Assembly (NCBI GenBank): GCA_947631645.1
Contig: CANRMD010000018.1
Span: forward strand, 1-36,391
DNA: 36,391 bases
Direction: 5' to 3'
Origin: Candidatus Gastranaerophilales bacterium
Lineage (GTDB): Bacteria > Cyanobacteriota > Vampirovibrionia > Gastranaerophilales > Gastranaerophilaceae
A program made the translations under genes and the position numbers. The notes under the pieces are model-generated. The model made no database searches. It worked only from the letters and a program-made list of their open reading frames with translations, and was not told where the DNA came from. Below are positions 9,135-24,487 of this stretch, in pieces (the first letter of the stretch is position 1; each line of letters begins with the position of its first letter).

Positions 9135-9140
9135 AAATAT

Positions 9141-9149: not shown

Positions 9150-9155
9150 TTAAGT

Positions 9156-9839
9156 ATGAATAAAGTTTTAAGAAATCTGTTTGTTTATATTTTTATTATA
9201 ATTTTGCTGCAAAGTCAGGTACTGGCTGACGATGTATCAAAAGGTGAGCAGCTTATAAAAAAAGCAAAATTGGCTCAAATAAAAGATGAAAGTTATGAGT
9301 ACATTAATAAAGCAAGAGATATTTTCCGCGAGGCGTATGAAAATAATCCTTCTGATATAAGAGTTTTGTTGGGCTTATCTAAAGTTGCACAATTTATTCA
9401 AGATAGAGGCGATGCAAAATTGTATCTTTTGATGGCATATAATACAAACCCTGCTGATCCTAAATTACAAAGAGAAATGGCTGATTTCTTCTATAATTTT
9501 CAGGAATATTCCACCGCTATAGAATATTATAAACTTGCGTTAGCTTCAGGATTATTAATGGACTTTGAAACAAATTTAAAAACGGCTCAATGTTATGAAA
9601 AGCTTGCTGATGTTGAAAATGCAAGATTGTATTATCAGATTTGTGCACAAATAAACCCCTCATCTAAAGTTGTTGCGGATAAGTTAAATCAATATGATTC
9701 CGAAGATCATCCTGATAATACCGAAGAACTTGAAAATGCCGGGTATAAATATTTGTTTAAAGATAAAAAATTATCTGAAAAAGAGCAAAATGAAGCTGAT
9801 TCGGAAAGTATTATAGAACAGATAAACAGTTCTTATTGA
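9156..9839 (+). CDS. Secreted TPR-repeat protein
   Basis: The 227-residue protein has an N-terminal signal or anchor (NLFVYIFIIILLQSQVLA, then DDVSKGEQL). It then has about four TPR-like helical pairs: AREIFREAYENNPSDIRVLL-type, AKLYLLMAYNTNPADPKLQ, YSTAIEYYKLALASG and ENARLYYQICAQINPSS. The C-terminal 50 residues are acidic. TPRs mediate protein-protein contacts, so a periplasmic scaffold role is inferred. The extended -10 sits directly before the ATG, implying a leaderless mRNA. The gene converges on the minus-strand operon and overlaps its last gene by 7 bp. Confidence 0.8.
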   Translation: MNKVLRNLFVYIFIIILLQSQVLADDVSKGEQLIKKAKLAQIKDESYEYINKARDIFREAYENNPSDIRVLLGLSKVAQFIQDRGDAKLYLLMAYNTNPADPKLQREMADFFYNFQEYSTAIEYYKLALASGLLMDFETNLKTAQCYEKLADVENARLYYQICAQINPSSKVVADKLNQYDSEDHPDNTEELENAGYKYLFKDKKLSEKEQNEADSESIIEQINSSY

Positions 9840-10315
9840 TTTATAAAAGGTTTATTAATAGAAGCTTGGCATTTAAGATATTCTAAAATAGCCCCTCCGA
9901 TTTCTTCAGTGGGGTCAAAATACGGAGAATTCGGAGTTAAAGATTGACGTATCATCATTTTTATTAACGGTCCAAACGCATCAGGCACAAGAGTTTTTCT
10001 GTATATTCCGGCAAGCATTACTTGAATGTTCGGAGAAGCCATGTCGTTAAATCTTGATAGTGAAGGATACATTTTATCAATGCCTTTTACACCTTTATCA
10101 AGCATTTTATCTAACACTTGGAGTGCATCAAGAACTTGTTCTTCAGTATTTGCCGTTTTTAAAAATGTATCAATATACGGCAAGGCTTCTTCTTTTGCAT
10201 TAACTAAGGAGGTTGTTCGTTGTTCGTTATATGTACAAAAATTTTTTGTTTGATTAGGAAATGTTACACCTTGTCCTAATTGTGATATGTTTTGTTGGAT
10301 TATCGGGTTAATCAT
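9833..10315 (-). CDS. Helical-repeat (HEAT-like) protein of unknown function
   Basis: The 160-residue protein is mostly helical: EALPYIDTFLKTANTEEQVL, LQVLDKMLDKGVKGI, NIQVMLAGIYRKTL, GPLIKMMIRQ. The pattern suggests HEAT/ARM-type helical pairs, but too few for confident assignment. The N-terminal polar tail (NPIIQQNISQLGQGVTF) resembles the short leader motifs of the other orphan proteins here. It is the last gene of a three-gene operon (12510 to 9833), 10 bp after the previous stop, with AAGGAG before its ATG. It overlaps the convergent TPR gene by 7 bp. Confidence 0.65.
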   Translation of the reverse strand: MINPIIQQNISQLGQGVTFPNQTKNFCTYNEQRTTSLVNAKEEALPYIDTFLKTANTEEQVLDALQVLDKMLDKGVKGIDKMYPSLSRFNDMASPNIQVMLAGIYRKTLVPDAFGPLIKMMIRQSLTPNSPYFDPTEEIGGAILEYLKCQASINKPFINQ

Positions 10316-10325
10316 ATTATTCTCC

Positions 10326-11828
10326 TTATGTATAAACGTATGGGGGACCGTTTTTGGTTTCCATTAATATATTATCAGCGAGCTGTTTTAATTCTTCTTT
10401 TGATTTTGTTCCTTGAAGTGCTTCTTTTTCAAATTGTTCCAATAACGGGTTAATTGCACTTTGTTTTTTTGACTTAAAGTTTTCAATTTCTACATCAACT
10501 AATCTTTTCCTCAGATTTAATTCTGTTTTTGCGTTTTCTCTTAATACAGTCATTTCTTTTAATGCATCCATACCTTGTTTAAACAGATATCCTATTGCAC
10601 TTGAAATTGTAAAAGCTCCGAAAATATATTTTGTGAATTTATTTTCAGGATTTAATATCCAGTTATATAAATGACCTCTGTTTTCATCAATGTAGCAATA
10701 GTACTGAATTTTTTTCGGAATACCTCCAAGTGCGGTCGGAGCATCAGCGAAAATTGTCTTTTTTGATTCTTCCACTGCACTTATTATAGAGGAAATTTCG
10801 TTTTCGGTTAAGTTATATTTTTTGCAAGTTGTTTTAATAAATTCAGGCTTTGCACAAATAGATTTAAACAGTTCCGTAATTGTCGGAATATCTTCTTTCT
10901 TTGCGGACTCACTCATTTTATTAATAGCGTCAATTGTTTTTTCTGCAAAGCCGTTTGCAAATTCTTCACTGAATTTTGCTGTTTTCTTAATATTGGAAAT
11001 GCTGAATTTGCCCAGTGCTATTGCTCCTAATATAACTCCGAGAATTAAAGCCGTATATTTAATATTTTTAATATTTTTTTGTTTTTGAGCACTATCCTCT
11101 TCTTTTTTTGTTCCTTTAAATGAAATAAATTCGGAGAATATGTTTGATTTTGTATCGGATTTTTTATTAAGAAGTTTATCAAAAAATTTTACGTTCTCTG
11201 TAAGCATATTATTAACGACGTCAAGTTTTCCGGAAAAGGAGTTTGTTTCAACCTCAATTAAATTTTCTTGTAATTCCCTTTCAATATCTGCAGATTGCTT
11301 TTTTAACCAGATTTCTTTAGCTCCGTCTACAAAATTTTTACAACCGATAGTAATTCCGCTCATAATAAAAATTGCGGCAGCTCCCATAATATTACGGAAA
11401 TTAGGATCCCTAATTGCTCTATATATTGCAAACTGCGGTTCTTCTTTTATATTCATGTTAACAGCCAAATCGGGCAGTTGTTCAAAACTTCTTGTTGTAA
11501 GTAAATTTTGTGATGATTTTTTTAATATTGCACTCATTGCAAAACAGCCGCCAACTATTAATGCTGTTGCCGCAAGAAGTGGTTTTAATGCTTTATTTAT
11601 GTTAAAGGAACTTTCTTTTGCTTCTTCATTTTTTAATGTTGTTTTTGTTGTATAGGTTGGAGCATGCATTAGCAGAGAATCTTGTATATCGTCAAAAGAT
11701 ATTGATTTCTCGTTATTTTTTACGTGAGTATTAATTAATACCCCTTTAAGCGTCGAATTTATTTCCGGCGTATTTGTTTTTGTAACTGTTTGTTTAGCTT
11801 TGATTACTTTTAATGCTGTCAGATTCAT
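10326..11828 (-). CDS. Multi-spanning membrane protein of unknown function
   Basis: The protein is about 500 residues with four likely membrane segments: KPLLAATALIVGGCFAM near 85-100, FRNIMGAAAIFIMSGITIG near 145-165, YTALILGVILGAIALG near 260, and KYIFGAFTISSAIGYLF near 400. Long charged helical stretches separate them, one being coiled-coil-like. ISFKG at about residue 237 echoes the ISFKA motif of the 942-residue protein. No enzymatic motif is visible. An ATG at 11834 is also in frame, but it sits against the GGA ribosome binding site, so 11828 is preferred. The start overlaps the end of the upstream gene by about 35-40 bp, implying translational coupling. Confidence 0.7.
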   Translation of the reverse strand: MNLTALKVIKAKQTVTKTNTPEINSTLKGVLINTHVKNNEKSISFDDIQDSLLMHAPTYTTKTTLKNEEAKESSFNINKALKPLLAATALIVGGCFAMSAILKKSSQNLLTTRSFEQLPDLAVNMNIKEEPQFAIYRAIRDPNFRNIMGAAAIFIMSGITIGCKNFVDGAKEIWLKKQSADIERELQENLIEVETNSFSGKLDVVNNMLTENVKFFDKLLNKKSDTKSNIFSEFISFKGTKKEEDSAQKQKNIKNIKYTALILGVILGAIALGKFSISNIKKTAKFSEEFANGFAEKTIDAINKMSESAKKEDIPTITELFKSICAKPEFIKTTCKKYNLTENEISSIISAVEESKKTIFADAPTALGGIPKKIQYYCYIDENRGHLYNWILNPENKFTKYIFGAFTISSAIGYLFKQGMDALKEMTVLRENAKTELNLRKRLVDVEIENFKSKKQSAINPLLEQFEKEALQGTKSKEELKQLADNILMETKNGPPYVYT

Positions 11829-12510
11829 TTTCATTCCGTTTCTTTATTTTTGAAAAAATTTTTACTATGTATTTTTTTATTTCTCTTGATTTAAAGATTG
11901 CAAGTGTTTCGTCATTTTTGTAATTTTCATCTTCTATATTGATATGGAAGAAAGCGAAAATTTTCTTTAAACTTCTTTTTATGTTTTTTAGAATTTTTAT
12001 TTCTATAAAATTTTTAATTTCACCTAAAATTGAAACGATTTTTTCTGCGGTTTGCTGAATGAAGGTTTTTATATCTTGTTGCAGTTGAGCAATTTTCTCA
12101 ATAATTTTAGGTAAAACAGAAATTATATTAATAAATATATTTGCTGCAATTTGTATAGTTGAGGTGATAATTTTCGGAGCTATATCTTTTATATTTTGAA
12201 TGGTATTTTGAATTTTTTGAGCTAAGTTTTCAATATTTTTATTAAGTTGTTTAGCAAATTCTAATTCTTTTTCAAAAGCGGTTTTAGCATTTTCGGCTCT
12301 TGCGTGTTGAGCTTTTATAGCAAGCCCTGCGGCATAACATTTCATGTATGACCATTGGTTAGAAATGGGTTTAGGCTTAGTAGCCGCGGAATCTTTCATT
12401 CTTGCTCCGCCCATAGCTCCTCCCGAACATATCGGGCAAGCGGACGGCGGCAGTCCGTGGGGACATAATCCTGCTCTTGAATTTGATTGTGCTGATATTG
12501 GCGATGACAT
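11794..12510 (-). CDS. Zinc-ribbon plus coiled-coil protein, first gene of a riboswitch-like leader operon
   Basis: The 238-residue protein begins with a small metal-binding motif CPHGLPPSACPIC (residues 16-28: C-x-H, then C-x2-C). A Gly/Ala-rich linker follows, then an almost continuous helical region (about 60-190). This contains EKELEFAKQLNKNIENLAQK and Ile-rich heptads, consistent with a coiled coil or amphipathic membrane-binding helices. The tail is basic and Ser/Asn-rich. No known family is identified. It leads the operon with the two genes downstream (overlap of about 35 bp with the next). Its ribosome binding site AAGGA, 6 nt before the ATG, is buried in a perfect hairpin (12517-12539), so translation is probably controlled by the leader RNA. 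Confidence 0.7.
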   Translation of the reverse strand: MSSPISAQSNSRAGLCPHGLPPSACPICSGGAMGGARMKDSAATKPKPISNQWSYMKCYAAGLAIKAQHARAENAKTAFEKELEFAKQLNKNIENLAQKIQNTIQNIKDIAPKIITSTIQIAANIFINIISVLPKIIEKIAQLQQDIKTFIQQTAEKIVSILGEIKNFIEIKILKNIKRSLKKIFAFFHINIEDENYKNDETLAIFKSREIKKYIVKIFSKIKKRNENESDSIKSNQS

Positions 12511-12516
12511 AAATAA

Positions 12517-12660
12517 TCCTTACTTGTTAATTGTAAGGACTCCAAAAATTAATTATTATTCGGATACACGAACAATAATCCATGGAGCATTCCGACTGTA
12601 ACGGCCGTGGTCCGGTTTAGGAATTTCACCTAAATTTCCTCTTATTAACTTTGAGGTTAT
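12517..12660 (-). promoter_or_regulatory. Riboswitch-like leader with ribosome-binding-site sequestering hairpin
   Basis: On the reverse strand (transcript 5'->3'), GGAA is followed by a stem-loop TTTAGG-TGAAATT-CCTAAA (12634-12616). Then come CCGGACCACGGCCGTTACAG and TCGGAATGCTCC. The order GGAA, GGTGAAATTCC, GC-rich core, AGTCGGAATGC resembles cobalamin-type aptamers. The consensus core CCCGC-x-ACTGT is not exact, and an FMN aptamer is a weaker alternative. Downstream, TCCTTAC (12539-12533) pairs perfectly with GTAAGGA (12523-12517), hiding AAGGA six bases before the ATG at 12510. That is the layout of a translational OFF switch. The regulatory hairpin is seen directly; the ligand class is a guess. 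Confidence 0.5.
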
Positions 12661-12704
12661 ATTACCATAGTGATTTTTTAGGGTAAATAATAAGTTAAAA
12701 AATA

Positions 12705-13802
12705 TTACAAGTTGAATCTAAAGTGAACTAAATCTCCGTCTTGTATAATGTAATCTTTTCCCTCAAGTCTTGTTAAGCCTTTATCTCTTGCGGCTGCATA
12801 TGAACCTGATTCAACAAAATCTTTATAACTTGTAACTTCAGCCCTGATAAAGCCTTTTTCAAAATCAGTATGAATAACTCCGGCTGCTTTTGGAGCTTTT
12901 GAGCCGGCTTTAACCGTCCAAGCTCTTACTTCTTTTTCGCCTGCAGTTATGAATGTAGTTAAATTCAGAAGTTTGTATACTGATTTTATCATTCTTTCTA
13001 TACCTGAATTTTCGACTCCGAGGTCTTTTAAATATGCTTTGGCTTCTTCTTCCGATAAATCAACAAGTTCGGCTTCAATTTTAGCGGAAATTACAACAAC
13101 ATCAGCCCCGTGGTTTTTTGCGTATTCTTTCACTTTATCCACATAAGCGTTACCTGTTGCTAAATCTCCTTCACTAACGTTAGCTGCATATATAACGGGT
13201 TTTATACACATTAATTGAGAATTTCTTGCACATTCAAGTTCTTCTTCTTGGAAATGTTCCTCTATGTTTATAAATGAAGCATCAGAAAGTAAATCATTGA
13301 GTTTTGATAAAACTTTATATTCAAGGTTTGCTTGTTTATCTCCGCTTTTTACTTGTTTAGTGAGTCTTTCAAGTCTTTTTTCTATAGATGCCATATCAGC
13401 CAGTGCAAGTTCTGTATTAATTGTTTCAATATCATCTATAGGGTTAACTTTGCCTGAAACATGGATTGTATTTTCATCATCAAAGCATCTTACAACCTGA
13501 ATAATCGCATCAACTTCTCTTATGTTGTGCAAAAATTGATTTCCCAAACCTTCACCTTTGCTTGCACCTTTTACAAGCCCTGCAATATCAACAAATTCAA
13601 TCGCTGTAGGTATTACAACATTTGTTTTTACCAAATCTTTTAATATATATAAACGTTCATCAGGAACATTAACTACACCTACATTTGGTTCAATTGTGCA
13701 AAACGGATAGTTTTCGCTTTGTGCATTTTTTGATGATGTAAGTGCGTTAAATAAAGTTGATTTTCCTACATTCGGGAGTCCTACAATTCCTGCTCGTAAC
13801 AT
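12705..13802 (-). CDS. ychF: Redox-regulated ATPase/GTPase YchF (Obg family)
   Basis: The 365-residue protein is of standard length. Its G1 P-loop is GLPNVGKST (8-16), followed by the Switch I-type NYPFCTIEPNVG. G3 is DIAGLVKGASKGEGLG, then FLHNIREVDAIIQVVRCF. The G4-position NVSE in place of NKxD is typical of the family's ATP preference. The C-terminal TGS domain includes RAWTVKAGSKAPKAAGVIHT and ends in DGDLVHFRFNL. YchF binds ribosomes and is linked to stress responses and translation quality. It is likely monocistronic and lies just upstream of the riboswitch-like leader of the next operon on the same strand. Confidence 0.97.
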   Translation of the reverse strand: MLRAGIVGLPNVGKSTLFNALTSSKNAQSENYPFCTIEPNVGVVNVPDERLYILKDLVKTNVVIPTAIEFVDIAGLVKGASKGEGLGNQFLHNIREVDAIIQVVRCFDDENTIHVSGKVNPIDDIETINTELALADMASIEKRLERLTKQVKSGDKQANLEYKVLSKLNDLLSDASFINIEEHFQEEELECARNSQLMCIKPVIYAANVSEGDLATGNAYVDKVKEYAKNHGADVVVISAKIEAELVDLSEEEAKAYLKDLGVENSGIERMIKSVYKLLNLTTFITAGEKEVRAWTVKAGSKAPKAAGVIHTDFEKGFIRAEVTSYKDFVESGSYAAARDKGLTRLEGKDYIIQDGDLVHFRFNL

Positions 13803-14094: not shown

Positions 14095-14409
14095 TTATTT
14101 TGTTAATGCCGTTACAATTTTATAAAAATCTTCTATTCTGTCAGGATTATTTTTTAATTTTGTGTTAATTTGTACTAATAAATCTTTATTACTATTTTTA
14201 TGCTCAAAATCAAAAGCATCAATAAATGAACAACCCAGAACTTCTAACAAATTTTCAAGATTTATAAGAGAGGGATAATTTTTTCCGTTTTCAATGTTAC
14301 TTATCGTAGTCGGATCAACATTTATTAATTCGGCAAGTTTTTCCTGATTAATGCCTTTTCGTTTTCTTAATTCCCTTATTCTTTTACCTAATAATTCTTT
14401 TTTGTTCAT
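14095..14409 (-). CDS. XRE-family transcriptional regulator
   Basis: The 104-residue protein has a classic helix-turn-helix of the Cro/CI type at about residues 8-60: LGKRIRELRKRKGINQEKLA, then ELINVDPTTISNIENGKNYP and SLINLENLLEVLG. A short C-terminal helix (about 75-103) may dimerise. It reads away from the acyl-carrier cassette at 14623-19606. A long inverted repeat with a third half site lies between the two, so it is the likely repressor of that cassette and of itself. This is inferred from position. No ligand domain is present. Confidence 0.9.
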   Translation of the reverse strand: MNKKELLGKRIRELRKRKGINQEKLAELINVDPTTISNIENGKNYPSLINLENLLEVLGCSFIDAFDFEHKNSNKDLLVQINTKLKNNPDRIEDFYKIVTALTK

Positions 14410-14481: not shown

Positions 14482-14546
14482 AAAATGAGTTTAAATCATT
14501 TAATATTAATTTAAACTCATTTTAATTAAAAATTATGAGTTTAAAT
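14482..14546. promoter_or_regulatory. Operator: 15-bp inverted repeat plus third half site
   Basis: AAAATGAGTTTAAAT (14482-14496) and its exact complement ATTTAAACTCATTTT (14509-14523) are separated by 12 bp. A third half site ATGAGTTTAAAT is at 14535-14546, about 50 bp from the first. The element lies between the divergent XRE regulator and ACP genes, as expected for an autoregulated operator. Confidence 0.7.
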
Positions 14547-14622: not shown

Positions 14623-14850
14623 ATGAAAAATAAAGAAAAATTAGCAGAAATCTTATCTGTATTATTAGGACAAAATGTTGAGATAAACAGTGATATTTCA
14701 ATGATGAATTGTGAAGTTTGGGATTCTATGAAACATATAGAAATTATTACAACACTTGAAGAAGAATTAGGTATCAGTTTCCCGATAGAAGATATTCCAA
14801 ATTTAACTTCATATAAACTTTTAGCGGATGAAATAAAAAAACTTATATAG
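14623..14850 (+). CDS. Acyl carrier protein (first of two in the cassette)
   Basis: The 75-residue protein has the ACP four-helix pattern. The phosphopantetheine attachment Ser is S35 in EVWDSMKHIEI, in the position of the usual DSL motif. The later EEELGISFPIEDIPNLTSY matches the helix 2-3 region. It would carry an acyl or glyceryl group as a thioester after 4'-phosphopantetheinylation. It leads the seven-gene cassette, just after the palindromic operator. The next gene starts 9 bp after its stop, which suggests that the FkbH-like enzyme loads this carrier. This is a specialised ACP rather than the fatty-acid AcpP, since it sits outside a fab operon and has DSM instead of DSL. Confidence 0.9.
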   Translation: MKNKEKLAEILSVLLGQNVEINSDISMMNCEVWDSMKHIEIITTLEEELGISFPIEDIPNLTSYKLLADEIKKLI

Positions 14851-14859
14851 GGAGTTGAT

Positions 14860-16443
14860 GTGCTTTTATTTGATAAAGATATTTCAAGATTAAAAATTTT
14901 GACCGAAAAAAAGAAAATGAAAATAAATAAAAAAATATTTGTTCGTCGTAACCATTCATTTGAAATGACAGGAAATGTTCTTAATGCTTTTTTAAATTAT
15001 TCAGATATTGAAGCATATATAGAATATAGCAGTTACGATGACAGTTTAACCTGTAATGATTTAATCGAAGCTGATTTACATATTTTATGGCTTGATTTAA
15101 ACAGATATAATGAAAATTTATTGAATAAATTTATTGCAGAAAAAGTAGAGGAATTAAGAAACAAAATCAGTTCTCCAATTTTACTTGCTTATATAGGCAG
15201 TGAAATAGAAGAAAAATATTTTACTACCAAAGATTTGACAATAGTAAATATTAATCAAGTGATAAATTCTTTAGGTAATAAAGCGTTTGATACTTCAAAG
15301 GAAGACTTATCAGGAACAAGGTTATCAAATAAAGCTTGTTTGTATATTGCACAGTATTTGGGATTAAAAATTATTCCTTCAATTTTAAAACCTGCTTTAA
15401 AAGCAATAGTTTTAGATTTAGATAATACTTTATATAAGGGAATTATTGCTGAGGACGGAATTAAAAATGTCTGTCCTTATAATAACTTACAGAAAAAATT
15501 AAAAGATTTAAAAAATAAAGGGTTTCTTCTGTGCCTATGTTCAAAAAATGAAGAGAGTGATGTTAAAAAACTTTTTACTTTAAGAGATGATTTTATTTTA
15601 AATTGGAATGATTTTACATCCATAAAAGCAAACTGGAATAAAAAATCAGATAATATAATTGAAATTGCAAAAGAATTAAATATAAGTACTGATTCAATAC
15701 TGTTTATTGATGACAATATTGCCGAAGTTGAAAATGTAAAAGCGTTTATAAACGACATTCATACAATTATCACTACAGAAGAAGAAAAAACATTAAGAAT
15801 TTTAGATTTGTATCCTTGTTTAATGAAAAAAAACGTTTCAAATGAAGATTTGATTCGTTCAAAAGATATACAATTAAATAAACAAAGAAAAGAAATTTCT
15901 AAAACACTTTCCAAAAGTGAATATTTTAAAAAACTGGAAATTAAAATTGAATTAACATTAAATGACAAAAATAATATAAACAGAATTTCAGAACTTTTAA
16001 ACAAAACAAATCAATTTATTTTATCCTACAAAAGATACAATTTAACCGAAACAGAAAAATTATTAAATTTTTCAAATACATGTATTGTAACCGCTAAAAT
16101 GTCTGACAAATTATCTGACAGCGGAATAATTGCAATACTTATAGCAAAGAAAAACAATACGGATTTATATGTGGATGAATTAACTTTTTCTTGCAGAGCA
16201 TTAGGTAGAAATATAGAGGATATTGTAATCACAAAAATGCTTCAAATTTCAATAAATTATTTAAAAACATCAAATAAAATATTAATAAATTATAAAAAAG
16301 GCCCGCGTAATATTCCTGCATTGTCCTGGTTATCATCTTATACCGGTGAAGTGTTGCAGGATAAGGGAATAATTATAAAGCAATTAACAAAAGACCTTGA
16401 AACTTACGGTTTGGATATTAAAGAGGTAACTTATGTGAAATAA
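14860..16443 (+). CDS. FkbH-like HAD-superfamily protein (glyceryl/acyl-ACP forming type)
   Basis: The 527-residue protein starts at GTG (14860) with GGGAG 5 nt upstream. It has three parts. An N-terminal region (about 25-160) occupies the place of the SGNH-like domain of FkbH proteins. A HAD-IIIC core follows with DLDNTLY (D186, D188), LCLCSKNEESDV (about 224-235) and FIDDNIAEVENV (D284, D285). The C-terminal part is GNAT-like (about 350-527), including YVDELTFSCRALGRNIEDIV. FkbH-type enzymes take the glyceryl group of 1,3-bisphosphoglycerate, dephosphorylate it and load it on an ACP. The usual DLDNTLWGG is DLDNTLYKG here, so the substrate could differ. The adjacent ACP is the obvious partner. 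Confidence 0.88.
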   Translation: MLLFDKDISRLKILTEKKKMKINKKIFVRRNHSFEMTGNVLNAFLNYSDIEAYIEYSSYDDSLTCNDLIEADLHILWLDLNRYNENLLNKFIAEKVEELRNKISSPILLAYIGSEIEEKYFTTKDLTIVNINQVINSLGNKAFDTSKEDLSGTRLSNKACLYIAQYLGLKIIPSILKPALKAIVLDLDNTLYKGIIAEDGIKNVCPYNNLQKKLKDLKNKGFLLCLCSKNEESDVKKLFTLRDDFILNWNDFTSIKANWNKKSDNIIEIAKELNISTDSILFIDDNIAEVENVKAFINDIHTIITTEEEKTLRILDLYPCLMKKNVSNEDLIRSKDIQLNKQRKEISKTLSKSEYFKKLEIKIELTLNDKNNINRISELLNKTNQFILSYKRYNLTETEKLLNFSNTCIVTAKMSDKLSDSGIIAILIAKKNNTDLYVDELTFSCRALGRNIEDIVITKMLQISINYLKTSNKILINYKKGPRNIPALSWLSSYTGEVLQDKGIIIKQLTKDLETYGLDIKEVTYVK

Positions 16444-16525
16444 CATATATCGTGAATTTATAAATAAATAAAAACTAATAAAAATTTATTTAAGAAAAAA
16501 CTTAAACATAGTAAAGCGAGTAAAA

Positions 16526-16934
16526 GTGTCTGAAAATCTGAAATTTCATCACATCGGTGTGGCAACACGCAGTATAGAAAAAGAATTCAAGGTTTTTCAA
16601 AGGCTTGGATATTATAAATACAGTGAAATCTTTGAAGACCACGGTCAAAAAATAAGAGGTTTATTTATAAAAGCGGATAATCAACCTTGTTTAGAACTGC
16701 TGGAAGGAATAACCGAAGATAATCCGTTAAAAAATCACATCTTAAAAGGAAATAAATTATATCATATTGCTTATGAAACAAAAAATATTGAACAAGATTT
16801 GAAATACTTGATTGAAACAATGGGGGGGGGTAAAAGTGATTATCCCTATTACAAAAGCCTCTTATTTTGAAAAAATATGTTTTATTGTCTTACAAAACAT
16901 GATGCTAGTAGAGTTTGTTCAATTAAAGGAGTAA
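16526..16934 (+). pseudogene. VOC-superfamily (methylmalonyl-CoA epimerase-like) gene, frameshifted in a poly-G run
   Basis: From the GTG at 16526 the frame encodes a vicinal-oxygen-chelate fold: LKFHHIGVATRSIEKEFKVF, LFIKADNQPCLELLEG and KLYHIAYETKNIEQDL, with family metal-ligand positions His and Glu. A run of nine G (16822-16830) shifts the frame, and translation would stop at 16870 after GGGKSDYPYYKSLLF. Removing one G restores an open frame to 16934, reading VKVIIPITKASYFEKI and ending EFVQLKE. That is the expected end of a VOC protein, and it brings the stop to 7 bp before the next gene. It is either a phase-OFF state or a sequencing error. The family includes epimerases, glyoxalases and dioxygenases; function here is not fixed. 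Confidence 0.8.
16822..16830 (+). repeat. Poly-G tract (nine G) inside the VOC gene
   Basis: It follows AT of an in-frame ATG codon. Eight G would keep the frame open to 16934; nine stop it at 16870. Homopolymeric G of this length is rare in such AT-rich DNA. Confidence 0.9.
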
Positions 16935-16941
16935 AAATAAA

Positions 16942-18015
16942 ATGGCAAATGCAAAAATAAAAAATATAAAAATAAAAGGTATGTCTGTTGTACTTGGAGA
17001 AAATGAAGTAAAATTTGAAAATGAGCCTCATTTTTATAATAACGATACTGTTCAACTTGCAAAGTTAAAAAAAATGATAGGTTTTGACACAAGATATACA
17101 ACTAACTTTCAAACAACAACTGCTGATTTATGTGAACAGGCGGCAAAAATTCTCATCAGTAAATTAGGAATAGATAAAAATTCCATAGACGGAATAGTTT
17201 TTGCGACACAAACTCCTGATTATTATATGCCCGGTAATGCCCATGTTATACATCGAAATTTGGGTTTTTCAAAAGAAACACTTTCTGTTGATTTGGAGTT
17301 TGGATGTTCAGGGTTTGTTTACGGACTTTTCATTTCTGCCTCAATGTTAAATAGCGGGTTAAAAAGAATTTTATTGCTCACCGGTGATACTTTGAGTAAA
17401 TTGACTAATCCAAAAGATAGAACGGTAACGCCTTTATTTTGCGATACAGGAAGTGCTGCAATTATTGATTATGATGAAAATGCAAAAGAATCATATTTTA
17501 TATTGAAATCTGACGGAAAAGGAATAAACAGTATGTTACAACCGGCAGGTGCATATAGAGTTCCGTCAACGGAAGAAACAAGAAAAGATATACCTGATAA
17601 AGACGGTAATGTACGAAATCAAGAAAATTTTTATATGAATGGTCTTGAAATATTTAATTTTACATTAACGGAACAACCGAAATTACTTAATGAAATTCTT
17701 GAATTTTCAGGTAATACAAAAGAAAATATTGATTATTTTGTTTTACATCAGGCAAATGTTTATATTGTTGAAACAATTTTAAAAAAATTAAATATTCCTT
17801 TCGAAAAAGCCCCGAGCAGAGTTTTTGAAAAATACGGAAATCAAAATTCAGCCTCTATTCCATCTGCAATATGTTCCGAATTATACGATAAATTTAGAGA
17901 GACTAAAAAGGTTCTTATGCAAGGCTATGGTATTGGTCTTTCCTGGGGTGCTTGTATTATGGATTTTGAAAACACAATTTGTATTCAACCTCAAATCTAT
18001 AGGAGGGAGGAATGA
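16942..18015 (+). CDS. 3-oxoacyl-ACP synthase III-like (KAS III) enzyme
   Basis: The 357-residue protein has the thiolase-fold catalytic triad of KAS III: C122 in FGCSGFVYGL, H269 in VLHQANVYIVETIL and N300 in KYGNQNSASIP. The C-terminal GYGIGLSWGACIM loop is also present. KAS III enzymes condense an acyl-CoA or acyl-ACP starter with an ACP-bound extender. Relatives in tetronate and surface-glycan clusters use glyceryl-ACP or other unusual partners. AAAGGAG lies 10 nt before the ATG. Position between the FkbH/ACP pair and the second ACP suggests that it joins the two carrier-bound units. It is not the housekeeping FabH, judging by context. Confidence 0.92.
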   Translation: MANAKIKNIKIKGMSVVLGENEVKFENEPHFYNNDTVQLAKLKKMIGFDTRYTTNFQTTTADLCEQAAKILISKLGIDKNSIDGIVFATQTPDYYMPGNAHVIHRNLGFSKETLSVDLEFGCSGFVYGLFISASMLNSGLKRILLLTGDTLSKLTNPKDRTVTPLFCDTGSAAIIDYDENAKESYFILKSDGKGINSMLQPAGAYRVPSTEETRKDIPDKDGNVRNQENFYMNGLEIFNFTLTEQPKLLNEILEFSGNTKENIDYFVLHQANVYIVETILKKLNIPFEKAPSRVFEKYGNQNSASIPSAICSELYDKFRETKKVLMQGYGIGLSWGACIMDFENTICIQPQIYRREE

Positions 18016-18116
18016 AATAAATTATTACATTATATCGAATTCATAAAACCTAAAAAACAAAAAACAATTTTTTGCTCAATCAGCAGTATTTCACCGATAA
18101 AAAAGGAGATTATATA

Positions 18117-18335
18117 ATGAACAAAAGTGAATTTCTGGAAAAGATGAAAGATATTTTGCAAACGGATGAAGAATTAAAATTAGATATGGAATTAGATTCA
18201 TTAACAGAATGGGATTCGTTGTCTAAATTAGCTACGGTTGCTTTTTTAGATTCAGATTTTGAAGTTAAAATAACTTTTAATGATTTCAGAAAAATTAAAA
18301 CTATTGACGATCTTGCAAAAAAGGCAGGAATATAG
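18117..18335 (+). CDS. Acyl carrier protein (second of two in the cassette)
   Basis: The 72-residue ACP has its attachment Ser S34 in TEWDSLSKLATVAFLD, with a following acidic helix and the end region TIDDLAKKAGI. The start is the ATG at 18117, preceded by AAAGGAG at 8 nt. An upstream in-frame ATG at 18072 lacks a ribosome binding site. It is distinct in sequence from the first ACP (shorter loop, DSL instead of DSM), so the two probably carry different groups. The SDR gene begins directly after its stop codon, with no gap. Confidence 0.9.
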   Translation: MNKSEFLEKMKDILQTDEELKLDMELDSLTEWDSLSKLATVAFLDSDFEVKITFNDFRKIKTIDDLAKKAGI

Positions 18336-19073
18336 ATGATTAAATTTAATAAAGAAGATATTTTTCTTGTAACCGGTGCAAGTTCAGGAATAGGACAGTC
18401 AATTGCACAAAAGCTTAATGAACTCGGTGCAAGCATAATTGCCGTTGCACGTTCTGTTGAAAAATTGGAGAAAACAAAAAACAATTCAAAATTTCCCCAA
18501 AATGTTTTCATTGAACCAAAAGATTTAACGGAAAATATTGAAAGATTACCGGATTATGTTAAAAATTTAAAAGAAAAATACGGTAAACTAAAAGGATTAA
18601 TCTGTTGTGCAGGAGTCGTCAATCCAAAACCTTTACAATTTATAGAAGAAAAAAACAGCAAAGATGTATTTAACATTAATTATTTTGTTCCGATTTTTTT
18701 AGCGAAGGGATTTGCTGATAAAAGAAATCGGACAATAAATTCTTCTATCGTGTTTATTTCATCAATAGCAGCAGTATATCCCGACAGAGGTCAAACAATT
18801 TATGCCGCATCAAAGGCGGCACTGATTGCATCTATGAAGAGTATAAGTAAGGAACTTACACCAAAAGGAGTAAGGGTAAATTCAATTTCACCTGCATATG
18901 TGGAAACTCCTATGTATTATAAAACCGAAGAAAATATAGGTACAAATATTGAAGATTTTCCTTTAGGTATTGGCAAACCATCTGATCTTGCAAATATGAC
19001 GGCATTTCTTTTATCTGATGAAGCAAGGTGGATTACCGGACAAAATTACATTATGGATGGAGGTGCATTTTAA
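18336..19073 (+). CDS. Short-chain dehydrogenase/reductase (FabG-like)
   Basis: The 245-residue protein has the SDR cofactor motif TGASSGIG (13-20), CAG (91-93, variant of NNAG), catalytic S143, and Y156-x3-K160 (YAASKAAL). It also has the family ending LLSDEARWITGQNYIMDGG. Sequence and context fit a 3-oxoacyl-ACP reductase acting on the KAS III product, using NAD(P)H. It could instead act on a nucleotide sugar. It starts immediately after the second ACP, and its stop overlaps the start of the GNAT gene (TAATG). The cassette from 18117 on is therefore tightly coupled. Confidence 0.9.
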   Translation: MIKFNKEDIFLVTGASSGIGQSIAQKLNELGASIIAVARSVEKLEKTKNNSKFPQNVFIEPKDLTENIERLPDYVKNLKEKYGKLKGLICCAGVVNPKPLQFIEEKNSKDVFNINYFVPIFLAKGFADKRNRTINSSIVFISSIAAVYPDRGQTIYAASKAALIASMKSISKELTPKGVRVNSISPAYVETPMYYKTEENIGTNIEDFPLGIGKPSDLANMTAFLLSDEARWITGQNYIMDGGAF

Positions 19074-19606
19074 TGGCAAAATTACTTTCAGAAGAAAAAT
19101 TAAAGGGTAAATATGTTAATCTTCGTGAGGTTACGGTTGAAGATGCGGAATTTATTCTAAAACTTCGCTGCGATGAAAAGAAATCACGTTTTCTTCACAA
19201 AACAGAATATAATGTTGAAAAACAAAAGGAGTATATTAAAAATTATTTAAAAAAAGACAATGAATGGTATTTTATTATTGAGAATAAAAAACATATACCG
19301 CTGGGAACAATTAGAATTTATGATGTAGAAGATGATAAGTTTACGGGCGGAAGCTGGTTGATGGTTTATGGAGCAACAAGTCAAGAAACTCTTGAAGGTG
19401 AAATACTTATGAAAGAATATGCTTTTAATGTTCTTGGGTTTAATAAAAATTGTTTTGATGTAAGGAAAGCAAATAAAAAAGTGGTACGTTTTCATAAAAT
19501 TTGGGGTGCAAAAATTGTTAGTGAAAATGATTATGATTATTTTTTTGAGTTGACAAAAAAAGACTTTGAAAATAATAAAAACAAAATATATTTAATGTTC
19601 GGGTAG
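19073..19606 (+). CDS. GNAT-family N-acetyltransferase
   Basis: The 177-residue protein is of the RimJ/RimL-like GNAT type: YVNLREVTVEDAEFILKLR at the start, WYFIIENKKHIPLGTIRIYDV in the middle strands, and a C-terminal FDVRKANKKVVRFHKIWGA. That last segment corresponds to the acceptor/CoA region of PseH-type sugar N-acyltransferases. The start is the ATG at 19073, overlapping the SDR stop, with GGAGG 8 nt upstream; a longer in-frame reading from 19028 lacks support. It probably transfers an acetyl or longer acyl group, perhaps the cassette product, onto an amino group. The acceptor is unknown. Confidence 0.85.
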   Translation: MAKLLSEEKLKGKYVNLREVTVEDAEFILKLRCDEKKSRFLHKTEYNVEKQKEYIKNYLKKDNEWYFIIENKKHIPLGTIRIYDVEDDKFTGGSWLMVYGATSQETLEGEILMKEYAFNVLGFNKNCFDVRKANKKVVRFHKIWGAKIVSENDYDYFFELTKKDFENNKNKIYLMFG

Positions 19607-19669
19607 TATTCGGATTTAAATTTTAACATTAAAAGACAATAGAGAAAAACAGTTTATCGACAATAAAAA

Positions 19670-20458
19670 CTATCCTTTTATTTTTACATCATCGGAAATT
19701 TTAATTTGAAATTTAGTACCGGCGGGCAGTGAAACGGAACCGCCTTTACAAAAAACGGATACGACAGGTGAAAAAGCGGCATTAACAATGTAAACTACTC
19801 CGCCAACTATCCAAATTACGGGAGATAGTAAATTAATTATTGGTATTGAAGCCATATCATGAGCGGCACCACTGGTTGCTTTAAATGCTTTTCGACCCGG
19901 TTTTGTCACTTTTGCACAATTTTTCCAGAATTTACGCTGTCCTTTTATATCAGAGCGGAATACTCTTTTTGAATTTGCAAGTGCTATTTTTGTATCAATC
20001 TTTGACATAACACCGTTTAAATGAATTTCATCAACGCAAAGTTCAATAAGACCGCCGTTCCCTGTTATTTGAGGTCTGTGTGAGTCTGTTACTCTGCCTT
20101 TAAATATTGTGCCTGATGGAATTGTGTATCCCTCTTTTGTCATAACAGGGTTTGATGAGCTAAAGGATATATATGTCCCTTTCGGACTCCAATCGGATAA
20201 TTTATTACGCAGTATTAAATTTACTTTGCTTCCGCTTTTTAAAGTGTATGTTTTACCTGTTGCTTTTGATACTGCAGGCAGAGGCGGAACTTCTTCTATA
20301 TCTGCTGTAGGGATTGATTTGGGTAATTCGGGCAAGTCATTTTCTTCCACTTTATAATTTTTTCTTATGGACTCATCTATGGAAGTATCAAATTCCACGG
20401 CATATACGCTTGTATTAATAAGCAATGATATTAATATTAAAGACAAAATCTTTTTCAT
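19670..20458 (-). CDS. Secreted protein with C-terminal hydrophobic hairpin
   Basis: The 262-residue protein starts with a signal peptide (KKILSLILISLLINTSVYA, cut after about residue 20). A Pro/Glu-rich linker (LPELPKSIPTADIEEVPPLP) follows, then a beta-rich domain: GKTYTLKSGSKVNLILRN, GYTIPSGTIFKGRVTDS and GGLIELCVDEIHLNG. The SGTIFKGRV strand pattern resembles TrbI/VirB10-type or SH3-like barrels of cell-envelope proteins, but I cannot assign a family. Near the C-terminus a hydrophobic stretch (PVIWIVGGVVYIVNAAFSPV) may be membrane-embedded. It converges on the acyl cassette, with a 63-bp gap. Two cysteines in the C-terminal third could pair. Confidence 0.7.
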   Translation of the reverse strand: MKKILSLILISLLINTSVYAVEFDTSIDESIRKNYKVEENDLPELPKSIPTADIEEVPPLPAVSKATGKTYTLKSGSKVNLILRNKLSDWSPKGTYISFSSSNPVMTKEGYTIPSGTIFKGRVTDSHRPQITGNGGLIELCVDEIHLNGVMSKIDTKIALANSKRVFRSDIKGQRKFWKNCAKVTKPGRKAFKATSGAAHDMASIPIINLLSPVIWIVGGVVYIVNAAFSPVVSVFCKGGSVSLPAGTKFQIKISDDVKIKG

Positions 20459-20508
20459 ATCTTTATTTTAATATTATTATTAATAATTTAACTCAATTAA
20501 ATGAGTGA

Positions 20509-22275
20509 TTATTTATCTTCAACTTTTATGCCGCTTGCATATTTTGGTGTTATTTCAGTCCAGAATTTATTGTATTCTTCTTGTGCTACTTTTACAACCG
20601 AACCTGATGATTTATATTTTTTATAGAGTTTATCGCAATAATTGCCGATTTTAGATAAAACTATTCCGGAAATAAGTGAAAATGCAAGGTTTTTAGCTCC
20701 CGATAACATCTTTGTCGTACCGTATACAAATGTTGCAAATGTGCCTACAAGAGGAATACATGTTGTCAAAGTCGCTGATATTTTTTCTTCTTTATTATCT
20801 CCTTTTGCAATGGAATATGCTCCGACTCCTATCGGGAACAGTACGGAAAGTACATCAGTCGGGGCGGAACCCACTTCTAATTCCGCCTGTTTTAAGAAAT
20901 ATTCACCTATTTCAAGTTCACTGGCTTTAGTTAAACCTTTACTTATTTTTTTTGATAATGATGCATATTCTTTCATATCCTTATCGGAAAGTAATTTAGA
21001 ACCGTTTAGGCCTTTTAGTATTGTCATTATTTCTTCAAGAGCACCTTTTTTACTTTCACTTACAGACATTAGTGAATTTGTTATTCCTTTTAAATGTTTA
21101 GTAAGTGCTGCTTGTTCTTCGGGGGTGTATAATGAATTTGATTTTAATGAATTTAAAGTTTCATTAATGAGTGAAGATAATTCAGAGGATATTTTTTCTC
21201 TTGCTTGAACTTCATTTTTGCCGGAACAATTTTTAAAAGCATCAAGTTTTTCTGTTAATGTACCGAGTGTTTTTATAGAAGCAGTATCATCAGGTTTTAT
21301 AACTTGAGAAAAACCTTTTAATCGATTTTTTAATCCGTCATATACTTGTTGAATGTTATTTGTTACTTGTTTTCTTGCTTTAATTATATCGTCTTGCAGT
21401 TCTTTTTGTGCTGATTTTGATACATCTTCTGTAACATATGTCTTATAATTTTTAATATCAAAAAGTCCTTTTTTTGAGAAAAACTTTCCTCTGACTTTTT
21501 GAGAAATTCCCGATAATAATTTTGTTCTTTTTTGTGCTCTTAATCTTCTTGCTCCTAAACTAAAACCTTGAGCGTAGGAGGTTTCAAGTTTTTGGGTTTG
21601 TTCGGATAAAATTTTTATCCATTCGCCTAATGGTTTTGAAACTCCTTTTATACTTATTTGCTCTAATTTTTGTGCTTCACTTAAATTTGACAGATTTTTA
21701 ATGTTGTATTGTTTTAAAAGCGAAGTTAAATCGCTTATTCCTATATCGACGGTATGGTATTTTTTGCCGAGAGTTGAGTCTACAACTTTTTTAAAACCTG
21801 ATTTTGAACCTTCGGCGAATTTAGTGCCGGCTTTTGTTGTTCTGAGTGCTGCATCGCTCGCAGAGTCCTTTATTGCAGTAAAATTAGATGCTGCTTGCAT
21901 CGTATCTATAACTTTTTTAATTCCTTTTTTTGTATAAAGTCCGATTTTTTTTGACAGTGTTTTTGTTGATTCAGAGTCTTGAATTTCTCTCGAAAGTTTA
22001 TCCGTATAATTTGAAAATCGCTTAAAAATACTGCCATGAAGCCCTTTTGCAAAAAACAATCCAACTAAACCCGCACTTACAATAGTAGTTGCAAGTGTGG
22101 AACCGAATATAATTTTTCTGGCTTTTGTACCTTTTCTTGAAATATCAACTTTGTCTTCAAGTGCACTTGATACTTTTATTGATGCGGGTATTGACGTACA
22201 TTTAGCTTGTTCCAGTTCATATTTGGGGAACAAGCTAAATATATCTCCGAATTGTTTAGAATTATAATTTTGCAT
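20509..22275 (-). CDS. Large helical membrane protein of unknown function
   Basis: The 588-residue protein has an N-terminal membrane segment (FGSTLATTIVSAGLVGLFFA, about 54-73) and a C-terminal hydrophobic region (LSVLFPIGVGAYSI, TCIPLVGTFATFVYGTTKM, LAFSLISGIVLSKIG, about 480-560). Between them lie some 400 residues of charged, Lys/Ser-rich helices. The arrangement of terminal membrane parts around a long helical middle resembles the other orphan proteins at 3929-6757 and 10326-11828. It follows the small membrane protein at 22284-22634 by 8 bp and is probably co-transcribed. The ATG at 22275 lacks a strong ribosome binding site, so it may rely on coupling. No known domain is recognised. 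Confidence 0.7.
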   Translation of the reverse strand: MQNYNSKQFGDIFSLFPKYELEQAKCTSIPASIKVSSALEDKVDISRKGTKARKIIFGSTLATTIVSAGLVGLFFAKGLHGSIFKRFSNYTDKLSREIQDSESTKTLSKKIGLYTKKGIKKVIDTMQAASNFTAIKDSASDAALRTTKAGTKFAEGSKSGFKKVVDSTLGKKYHTVDIGISDLTSLLKQYNIKNLSNLSEAQKLEQISIKGVSKPLGEWIKILSEQTQKLETSYAQGFSLGARRLRAQKRTKLLSGISQKVRGKFFSKKGLFDIKNYKTYVTEDVSKSAQKELQDDIIKARKQVTNNIQQVYDGLKNRLKGFSQVIKPDDTASIKTLGTLTEKLDAFKNCSGKNEVQAREKISSELSSLINETLNSLKSNSLYTPEEQAALTKHLKGITNSLMSVSESKKGALEEIMTILKGLNGSKLLSDKDMKEYASLSKKISKGLTKASELEIGEYFLKQAELEVGSAPTDVLSVLFPIGVGAYSIAKGDNKEEKISATLTTCIPLVGTFATFVYGTTKMLSGAKNLAFSLISGIVLSKIGNYCDKLYKKYKSSGSVVKVAQEEYNKFWTEITPKYASGIKVEDK

Positions 22276-22816: not shown

Positions 22817-24487
22817 ATGTTTAATGAAATTACAGCAAATTCATTTGACTCAATAGAAAAACAAGATATAAATTCTATGGCTCAAAGTTGTATGGAATTT
22901 GCAAGAAAGTTTCATGAACAGTATCTTATAAAAGGGAAAAAAACAGACTTAGATAACGCTGTTGATAATTATATTGATGCAATAAAATATAATCCTAATA
23001 TTTCTGAAGCCTACTATAGACTTGCTTCATTATTGTGGGATAAAGGAGAAATAAATTTAACGGGAGCTATAGAACAATGTAAGTCTGCAATAAGTATATC
23101 ACCGTCTAATTATAATGCCAGAATATATGCCGCATATTTTCTTGAAATGGCAAAAAATTATGAAGAAGCTGAAAAAGAACTTAAAGCAGCAATAAAATTA
23201 AATCCTTTAAAGTCAGCACGTTCAAGATTGTCTTTAGCTTCAATGTATTTTGATAAAATGAGTGACACTAAAATAAATTTAAAAGATTTATCTCAATCTA
23301 TATATTATATGCTTTCAGGTGGACTTAGCATAGCGTTGGATTATCCTTCCGTTAAAATGCTGTATAAAAATGTTTCAAAAAACTTATTTGTTATGTTTTA
23401 TGATGCTGTCGGAAAATTTATGGAAAAAACAAAAAATTATTCCTTGGCTGTAAAAGCATACGATATTGCGGCAAATACTACGGGTCAAAATGAGCTTTTT
23501 TATCAGAGAATCGGTGATATTAACATAAAAAATGAAGAAATTTCGGTTGCATTTGAGGCATATAAAAAGGCTTTGGAAACTAATCCGAATTCAAAGGAAA
23601 TGTTATATAAAGTAGCGGCTATTTCTCAATTCTGTATTGAAGAAGATTTAGATACCGCTATAGATTGTTATACAAGACTTTTAGAGCTTGAAGATAAAAA
23701 AGCCGAAATATATTATGAACTGGGGCATTTATATTTAAAGAAACAAAATATTTTAAGTTCAATAAATGCTTTTAATATGGCTATAGAAGAAGATTCCGAA
23801 AATCCTTTTTATCATAATGCTCTTGCATATGCACTTGTTAGTGCGGAACAATATGAGGAAGCCGCAGAACATTATAAAATTGCAATAAATAAAAACCCTG
23901 ACCCCGAATGGACTGCAATTGTTTGTCAAACTCTTGCTTCATTATATTATTCCGCTTTTGAAGATGTAGATGGAGCATTAGATTTATTAAAAACTTCTAT
24001 TATTCTTGACGGAACAAATTCCGATGCATTTGTTGATTTGGGTGATATATACTCTGAATGTGAAGATTTAGACAGTGCAATAAAAGCTTATTGTGAAGCA
24101 ATTAAATTAAATCCTAAGAATGCTCAAACATATAATAAATGTGCCATGGCATTGTGGCAGAAAAATTATATTGAAGAAGCTATTATTGCATATCATAAAG
24201 CTATAGGCTTAAAACCCGATTATTACAACGCTTATAATAATTTAGGCGTAATTTACCTTGACGGAATATGTAATTTAAAAGAAGCAAAAAAACTTTTTGA
24301 AAAAGCTATTGAATTAAAAGAAGATTATGCAATGGCTTATTTTAATTTAGCAAGAGTATTTCAGCGTCAAGGAAAAAATATTGAAGCGGCAAAAGCATAT
24401 CAATCTGCTCTTGAAATTAATGAATATAGTCAAGAAATGGATTCAAACGAAATTAGAGAAAAACTTCACTCTGTATTTGAAGTTTAA
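22817..24487 (+). CDS. TPR-repeat protein (about a dozen repeats)
   Basis: The 556-residue protein is built nearly entirely of tetratricopeptide repeats. Examples are AYYRLASLLWDKGEINLTGA, ARIYAAYFLEMAKNYEEAEK, IYYELGHLYLKKQNILSSIN and AYNNLGVIYLDGICNLKEAK. There is no signal peptide, so it is cytoplasmic and probably a scaffold. Some repeats have an extended helix (DLDTAIDC, DVDGALDL insertions), as in SEL1/TPR mixtures. GGGGGAAG precedes the ATG by 7 nt. The gene overlaps the convergent sigma factor gene by 4 bp. Partners are unknown; the position opposite the flhB-sigma operon is only suggestive. Confidence 0.88.
   Translation: MFNEITANSFDSIEKQDINSMAQSCMEFARKFHEQYLIKGKKTDLDNAVDNYIDAIKYNPNISEAYYRLASLLWDKGEINLTGAIEQCKSAISISPSNYNARIYAAYFLEMAKNYEEAEKELKAAIKLNPLKSARSRLSLASMYFDKMSDTKINLKDLSQSIYYMLSGGLSIALDYPSVKMLYKNVSKNLFVMFYDAVGKFMEKTKNYSLAVKAYDIAANTTGQNELFYQRIGDINIKNEEISVAFEAYKKALETNPNSKEMLYKVAAISQFCIEEDLDTAIDCYTRLLELEDKKAEIYYELGHLYLKKQNILSSINAFNMAIEEDSENPFYHNALAYALVSAEQYEEAAEHYKIAINKNPDPEWTAIVCQTLASLYYSAFEDVDGALDLLKTSIILDGTNSDAFVDLGDIYSECEDLDSAIKAYCEAIKLNPKNAQTYNKCAMALWQKNYIEEAIIAYHKAIGLKPDYYNAYNNLGVIYLDGICNLKEAKKLFEKAIELKEDYAMAYFNLARVFQRQGKNIEAAKAYQSALEINEYSQEMDSNEIREKLHSVFEV

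Follow-up and report, generated by a model that had tools for sequence, protein, structure and literature searches.

The window analyzed here is a stretch of 36,391 nucleotides with a G+C content of 30% (contig CANRMD010000018.1, assembly GCA_947631645.1) from a Candidatus Gastranaerophilales bacterium. It contains a seven-gene cassette coding for two acyl carrier proteins (ACP1 and ACP2), an FkbH protein, a VOC protein, a 3-oxoacyl-ACP synthase III (KAS III), a short-chain dehydrogenase/reductase (SDR) and a GNAT acyltransferase. All seven frames and a divergent regulator were found where an earlier note on this DNA had described them, but only six of the cassette genes are intact, the VOC frame being split at a tract of nine Gs. 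Loci, genomes and contigs are designated below by L, G and C numbers respectively; the genome of the window is G000. The features of the cassette are the following:

14623 to 14850, plus strand: ACP1, putative starter carrier adjoining FkbH (PP-binding, E = 2.9e-5; WDSM serine motif; an FkbH-adjacent ACP is also found in relatives)
14860 to 16443, plus strand: FkbH, predicted HAD-type glyceryl loading enzyme of 527 aa (TIGR01686, 284.7 bits, above the curated cut-off of 146.65)
16526 to 16870, plus strand: first part of the VOC enzyme (glyoxalase I/methylmalonyl-CoA epimerase fold; positions 1-92 of the 129 of TIGR03081)
16822 to 16830, plus strand: G9 homopolymer tract splitting the VOC frame (at the homologous site, G14 in L060 and G10 in L202)
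16831 to 16934, plus strand: remaining VOC C-terminus in a different frame, carrying the third putative metal-ligand Glu (second profile match G000:C18:16731-16934)
16942 to 18015, plus strand: KAS III of the KAS3a clade, condensing enzyme (C-domain, 5e-22; Cys-His-Asn triad)
18016 to 18116, plus strand: gap at the site of a second KAS III gene (KAS3b) in L056 and L057, possible deletion scar (11-nt matches only)
18117 to 18335, plus strand: ACP2, putative carrier of the extended acyl chain (PP-binding, E = 0.009; EWDSL motif; homologous to ACP2 of related loci)
18336 to 19073, plus strand: SDR, FabG-like 3-oxoacyl reductase (adh_short_C2, 2e-44; 3oxo_ACP_reduc, 146.5 bits)
19073 to 19606, plus strand: GNAT N-acyltransferase (Acetyltransf_3, 1.1e-9; nearest solved structure by sequence FdhC, 5kta, E = 8.7e-26)

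Residues D186, D188, T190, D284, D285 and C445 of FkbH, which include the DxDxT motif of HAD proteins and the invariant SCR cysteine, are conserved in 26 of 26 rows. The KAS III active site is conserved as well (Cys122 in 35 of 35 aligned sequences, His269 and Asn300 in 36 of 36). FdhC (5kta) is the sole PDB match of the GNAT at E ≤ 0.01, and the GNAT falls short of the PseH model TIGR03585 (42.2 bits against a cut-off of 93.1).

Cassette order and gene associations in other genomes

Relatives of the window KAS III (E ≤ 1e-40) were found in 21 of 191 genomes of the family. The same gene order, for which the earlier note had recommended searching, is present in two other genera (L056 and L057) as ACP1-FkbH-VOC-KAS3a-KAS3b-ACP2-SDR-GNAT, with 80% and 72% identity to the window KAS III respectively; FkbH and VOC are separated in L057 by a Capsule_synth gene and a radical SAM gene. 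Both of these near relatives bear the name Gastranaerophilales, to which the earlier note had likened the genome. A Campylobacterota contig (L060) has ACP1-FkbH-VOC-KAS3-ACP2-SDR, preceded by a PglD-like gene, and its VOC is likewise split, by the G14 tract at the homologous site. In L132 and L130, KAS3-ACP2-SDR and one more gene (hexapeptide-type by eye) precede ACP1-FkbH-VOC-KAS3a. Its recurrence in L056, L057 and L060 indicates that the order is more than chance, and the patchy distribution of the cassette suggests horizontal transfer. The gap between KAS III and ACP2 as a remnant of KAS3b is suggestive at most, given that only 11-nt matches were seen.

According to the earlier note, its model would fail if the cassette were conserved with fatty acid genes. 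Such conservation is not the rule: the KAS III and the SDR fall below the cut-offs of the fabH (178.9 against 292.1 bits) and FabG (cut-off 297.75 bits) models, and no fab genes were seen beside the window, L056, L058/L132 or L060, but fabG-, fabD- and fabH-like genes (by eye) lie about 5 kb past the cassette of L057, on the opposite strand (18695-21062). With this caveat, a duty in fatty acid synthesis was set aside on the model scores.

FkbH matches at E ≤ 1e-30 were detected in 56 of 383 genomes of the family, 38 of them above the cut-off. The loci examined comprise all 22 strong rows, three of the 38 weak rows and L060, making 26 rows, 15 of which are of the window type (phmmer E < 1e-100). 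A VOC gene lies within 4 kb of FkbH in all 15 window-type rows, in three of the eight rows with an FkbH of the 600-aa type and in none of the three weak ones. Seen from the KAS III side, a VOC gene lies within 8 kb in all nine rows (6 loci) that have FkbH close by, but in none of the 27 rows (22 loci) without it, a contrast weakened by the limited flanks of these 27, since 8 kb of sequence is available on both sides in only 11. Because of these proximity counts, the VOC protein is best placed with the product of FkbH and a chance neighbour is ruled out; the position of the VOC gene in the middle of the cassette, which had been called unusual, is no oddity. A VOC profile built from nine rows has matches in 21 of the 383 genomes, comprising 12 of 12 with window-type FkbH (seven of which supplied profile rows and hence match by construction) and nine of the 371 others. 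Four of these nine (G251, G259, G362 and G325) have the VOC beside a 600-aa FkbH. The other five fit the association less well: in G241, G357, G247 and G215, no FkbH is found in the available stretch (the G241 contig ends right after the VOC), and G301 is a weak match.

The 600-aa FkbH type is accompanied by an ACP in L128, L129, L131, L133, L137 and L138, and a VOC adjoins it in L133, L137 and L138. Except in L137, a 4.2-kb contig, MBOAT-like proteins (by eye) and repeated proteins of 550-576 aa are encoded near these loci, and G/C tracts are present in several of the repeated ones. L140 and L141 have FkbH-like genes (591 and 583 aa) next to ATP synthase epsilon/beta-like genes (by eye).

In the KAS III tree, the KAS3a of the window, L056, L057, L132 and L060 form a single clade with L059 (100/100). 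L059 is an alphaproteobacterial metagenome-assembled genome in which an AMP-ligase, a small open reading frame (ORF) that resembles an ACP but matches no Pfam family, and an SDR replace FkbH-ACP1-VOC ahead of KAS3a-KAS3b-ACP2-SDR (6557-13096). This same-clade KAS III behind an AMP-ligase, with neither FkbH nor VOC, weighs against the pathway proposed below; the KAS3a clade is therefore not tied to glyceryl as such. We infer that a loading module supplies the clade with its starter, and FkbH-ACP1-VOC would be one such module. The loci form a modular series: FdtA-KAS3-ACP2-GNAT in L049, FdtA-FkbH-ACP and a GNAT.VOC fusion in L124 and L125, and the window type, which combines both. The second FkbH locus of the window genome (L033, 8246-14051 of G000:C1) encodes a hexapeptide transferase, a formyl transferase, an ATP-grasp/HAD protein, FkbH, an ACP and a GNAT-VOC fusion; C10, C11 and C9 tracts lie in the hexapeptide transferase, formyl transferase and ATP-grasp/HAD genes respectively.

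This modularity could also mean that two separate acyl groups are made by neighbouring genes and not one chain: FkbH-ACP1-VOC would provide a glyceroyl group, and KAS III-ACP2-SDR-GNAT a 3-hydroxybutanoyl group from acetyl-CoA for Fuc3N. KAS III modules lack FkbH in 27 of 36 rows, FkbH-ACP-GNAT.VOC modules occur without KAS III at L033, L124, L125 and L135, and the KAS3-type GNATs of L049 and L050 are nearer than the fusions to the GNAT of the window, all of which fits that scenario. Nevertheless, the window has a single acyltransferase for the two chains, and the KAS3a of the FkbH cassettes constitute one clade into which only L059 is mixed, where the AMP-ligase takes the place of FkbH. We thus regard two acyl groups as rather unlikely, though a serious contender, and prefer a single chain built by both modules.

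Homopolymer tracts and the split VOC frame

The VOC frame of the window (114 aa) ends shortly past the G9 tract, whereas its intact relatives have 133-146 aa; no further damage was seen in the second frame. The protein matches Glyoxalase_4 (3.3e-12), and in its split state it remains under the cut-off of the methylmalonyl-CoA epimerase model TIGR03081 (45.0 against 114.95 bits). Among PDB folds, the predicted structure of the intact VOC of L056 (mean pLDDT 91) lies nearest to Clostridium acetobutylicum glyoxalase I in its Ni-bound form (TM 0.85) and to methylmalonyl-CoA epimerases (similar fold, TM 0.74-0.80 by query length). Glyoxalase I forms an alpha-hydroxyacyl thioester via an enediolate, so chemistry at the alpha-carbon of a glyceryl-S-ACP would be natural for a VOC enzyme. 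The simplest guess is that it would act as an epimerase of C2 of glyceryl-S-ACP.

Eight-G words are found five times in the window, in two tracts, against 0.04 expected from dinucleotide shuffles; the two G/C runs of at least 8 are at 2491-2500 and 16822-16830. Among stand-alone VOC genes, seven of 17 have such a tract (six of 13 in a first set, to which four further loci were added), three in frame and four not. Tracts of at least 8 are present in none of five GNAT.VOC fusions, one of 26 FkbH, two of 39 KAS III, none of 54 ACP, none of 21 SDR and none of seven GNAT genes, and in both ATP-grasp/HAD rows beside FkbH. The difference between VOC and FkbH has a Fisher P of 0.004 (14 VOC rows). The VOC tracts occupy three sites, the first shared by the window and L060 (both off) and L202 (in frame), the second by L133 and L138 (in frame) and L137 (off), and the third in L136 (off). 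As genes sharing a tract site are related and not independent, the tracts were also counted as three events, which gives a Poisson P of 0.003 at the tract density of the loci. Both on and off states, as expected of a contingency locus, thus occur among relatives. The in-frame G10 VOC of L202 (6512-6919) lies at the end of a contig, and the available stretch contains no FkbH.

The recurrence of tracts in this gene suggests phase variation of a tailoring step. Tract lengths were taken from assemblies, one per species, in which no variation of tract length inside one population was seen. Alternatively, the VOC could be a decaying pseudogene, or its frame break an assembly error, and no switching would take place. 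The assembly is a draft in which tract lengths can be wrong; furthermore, the VOC of L205 is broken without any tract and G325 retains only a VOC remnant. This explanation seems unlikely in view of the concentration of tracts in stand-alone VOC genes, at three sites and in frame in L133, L138 and L202, when FkbH and ACP genes are nearly or entirely free of them, of the otherwise undamaged remainder of the window VOC, and of the distribution of tract lengths in the genome. The latter (1.87 Mb) has 39 G/C tracts of at least 8, of which 2, 16, 18 and 3 have lengths of 8, 9, 10 and 11 respectively, and this peak at 9-10 is unlike chance runs.

Nineteen of the 39 tracts are in ORFs of at least 100 aa and 20 are outside. 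Twelve tract-bearing proteins were scanned with Pfam: five had no family and seven did, namely two hexapeptide transferases, a formyl transferase, an ATP-grasp/HAD protein, an FkbM-type methyltransferase, a radical SAM protein and a methyltransferase, the last just under the cut-off. A longer repeated motif, TTGC-NNN-G(8-11)-TAAAAGTGGTATAAT with small variants, surrounds eight of the 39 tracts (2491-2500 of the window, L155, two in L156, L160, L162 and two in L165), which are positioned as if they were spacing -35 and -10 boxes. A promoter reading of all the tracts was rejected, since a TATAAT-like box (one mismatch allowed, in AT-rich DNA) follows within 22 nt in 13 of the 20 tracts outside ORFs and 11 of the 19 inside, which does not discriminate between them; only the longer motif stands out. 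At least one tract is present in 130 of 146 genomes of the family, with genus counts from 0 (G049) to 121 (G123). An excess peculiar to the family was also discarded: tracts are found in 117 of 117 genomes sampled from the phylum, and some of other families have many more, such as G438 with 418 in 3.0 Mb, these being raw counts uncorrected for G+C and some of the genomes being larger. A literature search yielded, among the matches listed and in the parts of them that were available, no paper on phase variation in Gastranaerophilales.

A stronger version of the switching hypothesis can be put forward tentatively, as possible but not the expected outcome. Slippage of the G tract would toggle a VOC epimerase, so that a clone would alternate between two configurations of one decoration on the same sugar and with the same linkage; this stereochemical switch would be part of a genome-wide homopolymer system of Gastranaerophilales, acting in the frames of glycan enzymes and in promoter spacers.

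Sugar context, proposed pathway and regulator

FdtA, a sugar 3,4-ketoisomerase, is present in 98 of 383 genomes. It lies within 1.7 kb of FkbH in G123, G138, G154 and G039, and it is found in all six genomes with a window-like GNAT (E < 1e-10 to the window GNAT) at an FkbH locus (G000, G123, G138, G154, G039 and G341; hypergeometric P = 2.5e-4). In L056, two inverted FdtA genes with identical first 60 residues lie between two FkbH cassettes (2928-3329 and 3700-4110). The glycan genes that the earlier note had advised looking for outside the window exist in its genome, away from the cassette: FdtA, a DegT aminotransferase and an ACPS-type phosphopantetheinyl transferase are on contig C10 and RmlB is on C7, so the genes for a dTDP-3-amino sugar are present at the genome level. 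The phosphopantetheinyl transferase gene is near FdtA-DegT in the window genome (L171, 7868-8308), and another one stands beside KAS3a in L058 (11082-11435). FdhC is the best solved match for the GNATs of all three module types (window, KAS3-type of L049 and GNAT.VOC fusions). Pseudaminic-type genes are found near FkbH at L134 (with VOC) and, by eye, at L136 (with VOC) and L139 (without VOC); next to the window cassette, no nonulosonic acid genes appear among the 20 window proteins covered by the Pfam scan, to which this search was confined.

From the gene content and order, the catalytic residues, the tract with its frame break and the association with sugar genes, all sequence-based, we infer the substrates, products, epimerase role and switching that follow. 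The cassette probably builds an unusual hydroxyacyl group on carrier proteins, which would be amide-linked to a dTDP-3-amino-3,6-dideoxyhexose of the Fuc3N/Qui3N type for a surface glycan, and the G9 tract would make the VOC step phase-variable. FkbH would first charge ACP1 with a glyceryl unit, for which 1,3-bisphosphoglycerate is the most likely source. The VOC metal enzyme would then act at the alpha-carbon of glyceryl-S-ACP1, in the simplest case by epimerizing C2, and the KAS III would join the glyceryl-ACP1 starter and malonyl-ACP2 into 3-oxo-4,5-dihydroxypentanoyl-ACP2. Reduction of the 3-oxo group by the SDR would give 3,4,5-trihydroxypentanoyl-ACP2. The sugar, a product of RmlB, FdtA and DegT, would receive this chain at its 3-amino group through the FdhC-like GNAT. 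The sequenced state would correspond to VOC off, and the decoration would have another configuration or be less abundant.

Several observations weigh against this proposal. Of the 20 window proteins that were scanned, none next to the cassette belongs to a sugar gene, and FdtA is linked to the cassette through relatives and other contigs. The grouping behind the FdtA test was made post hoc: adding loci with a distant GNAT gives six of seven (P = 0.0014) or six of eight (P = 0.004), the added ones being L136/G339 (E = 1.4e-6) and L139/G133 (E = 2e-7), with no FdtA in their genomes and nonulosonate-type neighbours. The second KAS III of L056 and L057 is absent from the window, where the product may be shorter or the pathway incomplete. 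Finally, ACP2 has a Pfam score of 16.7 bits, under the cut-off of 20.8, although it contains the EWDSL motif and aligns with the ACPs of related loci.

What the earlier note had suggested is partly retained. An acyl-decoration cassette for a glycan is favored by the recurring order and the sugar-gene context, the FkbH, KAS III, SDR and GNAT order still makes sense as a pathway and the parallel with Campylobacter discussed below is upheld; a tetronate product, an intact VOC and a dedicated regulator are not. The regulator and its surroundings comprise two features:

14095 to 14409, minus strand: XRE-type transcriptional regulator, divergent from the cassette (HTH_3, E = 1.9e-17)
14482 to 14546, no strand assigned: possible operator made up of a perfect 15-nt inverted repeat, AAAATGAGTTTAAAT (arms 14482-14496 and 14509-14523), and a third half-site (14535-14546)

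The inverted repeat sits in the gap between the XRE gene and ACP1, and all three occurrences of GAGTTTAAAT in the window are within the candidate operator; three of 100 shuffles reach three matches anywhere in the window. A regulator dedicated to the cassette is not supported: no XRE homologue (E ≤ 1e-3) was found in the available stretches of the cassette loci L056, L057, L132 and L060, and homologues are present at L133, L049, L046, L140 and L141. At 24487-26267, some 5 kb away from the cassette, the window encodes FlhB and a sigma-70 region 4 protein, whose genes are likely flagellar.

Comparison with known systems

FkbH proteins load a glyceryl unit from 1,3-bisphosphoglycerate onto an ACP, and a conserved cysteine takes part in the reaction. 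The window protein resembles the OzmB-type FkbH of polyketide pathways in its TIGR01686 family, HAD motif and invariant SCR cysteine; unlike these systems, the cassette has a discrete ACP and a sugar acyltransferase, and no modular polyketide synthase. FkbH, ACP and KAS III, all present in the window, are the core of tetronate pathways, which also use an accessory acyltransferase and an eliminating hydrolase, and the earlier note had evoked tetronate biosynthesis for this reason. Yet the SDR and a sugar-type GNAT come next in the cassette, the relatives are accompanied by the sugar genes FdtA and DegT, and no tetronate accessory enzyme is among the 20 window proteins scanned. Since the SDR, the GNAT and the sugar context point away from it, a small tetronate was set aside, and this or another secreted metabolite made from glyceryl-ACP and KAS III appears very improbable.

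The cassette can also be compared with the FdhC pathway, in which FdhC acts in the synthesis of 3-hydroxybutanoyl Fuc3N/Qui3N (Acinetobacter, E. coli O103) and the hydroxybutyryl donor is CoA-bound. RmlB, FdtA and DegT in the genome and the FdhC-like GNAT are shared with it, but a carrier-protein route with FkbH and VOC would replace the CoA-bound donor. The 3-hydroxybutanoyl amides of Fuc3N and Qui3N themselves are known, according to the part of the source available (PMC3726653). No paper assigning FkbH to a sugar acyl group was found among the matches listed in a literature search.

The flagellin glycosylation locus of Campylobacter jejuni offers the other parallel, which the earlier note had drawn. 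As far as the available parts of the two sources go, this locus has the fkbH-domain gene cj1302, cj1301 annotated as an epimerase (PMC7099621), poly-G tracts and a glycerate on an amino sugar: the poly-G gene Cj1295 is required for the di-O-methylglyceric acid derivative of flagellin pseudaminic acid (PMC3068675). The ACP1-FkbH-VOC-KAS3-ACP2-SDR order of the Campylobacterota contig L060 strengthens the parallel. Strain 12664, in which cj1302 is a pseudogene, and strain 12661, which has no cj1301, are both reported in the consulted part of PMC7099621 to be without dimethylglyceric acid; by analogy, these differences fit a glycerate product, as a lead and not a proof. They are open to other explanations, since in that same part the two strains differ in further genes and their cj1295 on/off state could alone account for the missing group, and since the cj1301 epimerase is known there from annotation, which leaves its VOC identity unproved. 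The authors were not found, in the portion of PMC7099621 at hand, to draw a link between cj1301/cj1302 and dimethylglyceric acid. In G144 (L134), DUF4910/DUF2172 and Antibiotic_NAT genes stand beside ACP-VOC-FkbH with the pseudaminic-type genes. They recall Cj1295 and Cj1296/7, described in the available text as aminopeptidase-like and N-acetyltransferase respectively, a likeness by description and not by alignment.

If true, the proposed pathway would explain in a testable way how glycerate-based sugar decorations are made, the enzymes for which are unassigned in what was seen of the C. jejuni papers (PMC3068675, PMC7099621), and would give the recurring VOC protein a place in this route. The tracts suggest that slippage varies the surface of Gastranaerophilales, which are gut-associated and mostly known from assemblies, as it does in Campylobacter. 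The two systems would nevertheless differ in their sugar, a nonulosonic acid in C. jejuni and, judging from the relatives of the window, a dTDP-3-amino-hexose here, with chain extension by KAS III, ACP2 and SDR; and unlike in the C. jejuni locus, the tract of the window cassette sits in the VOC gene.

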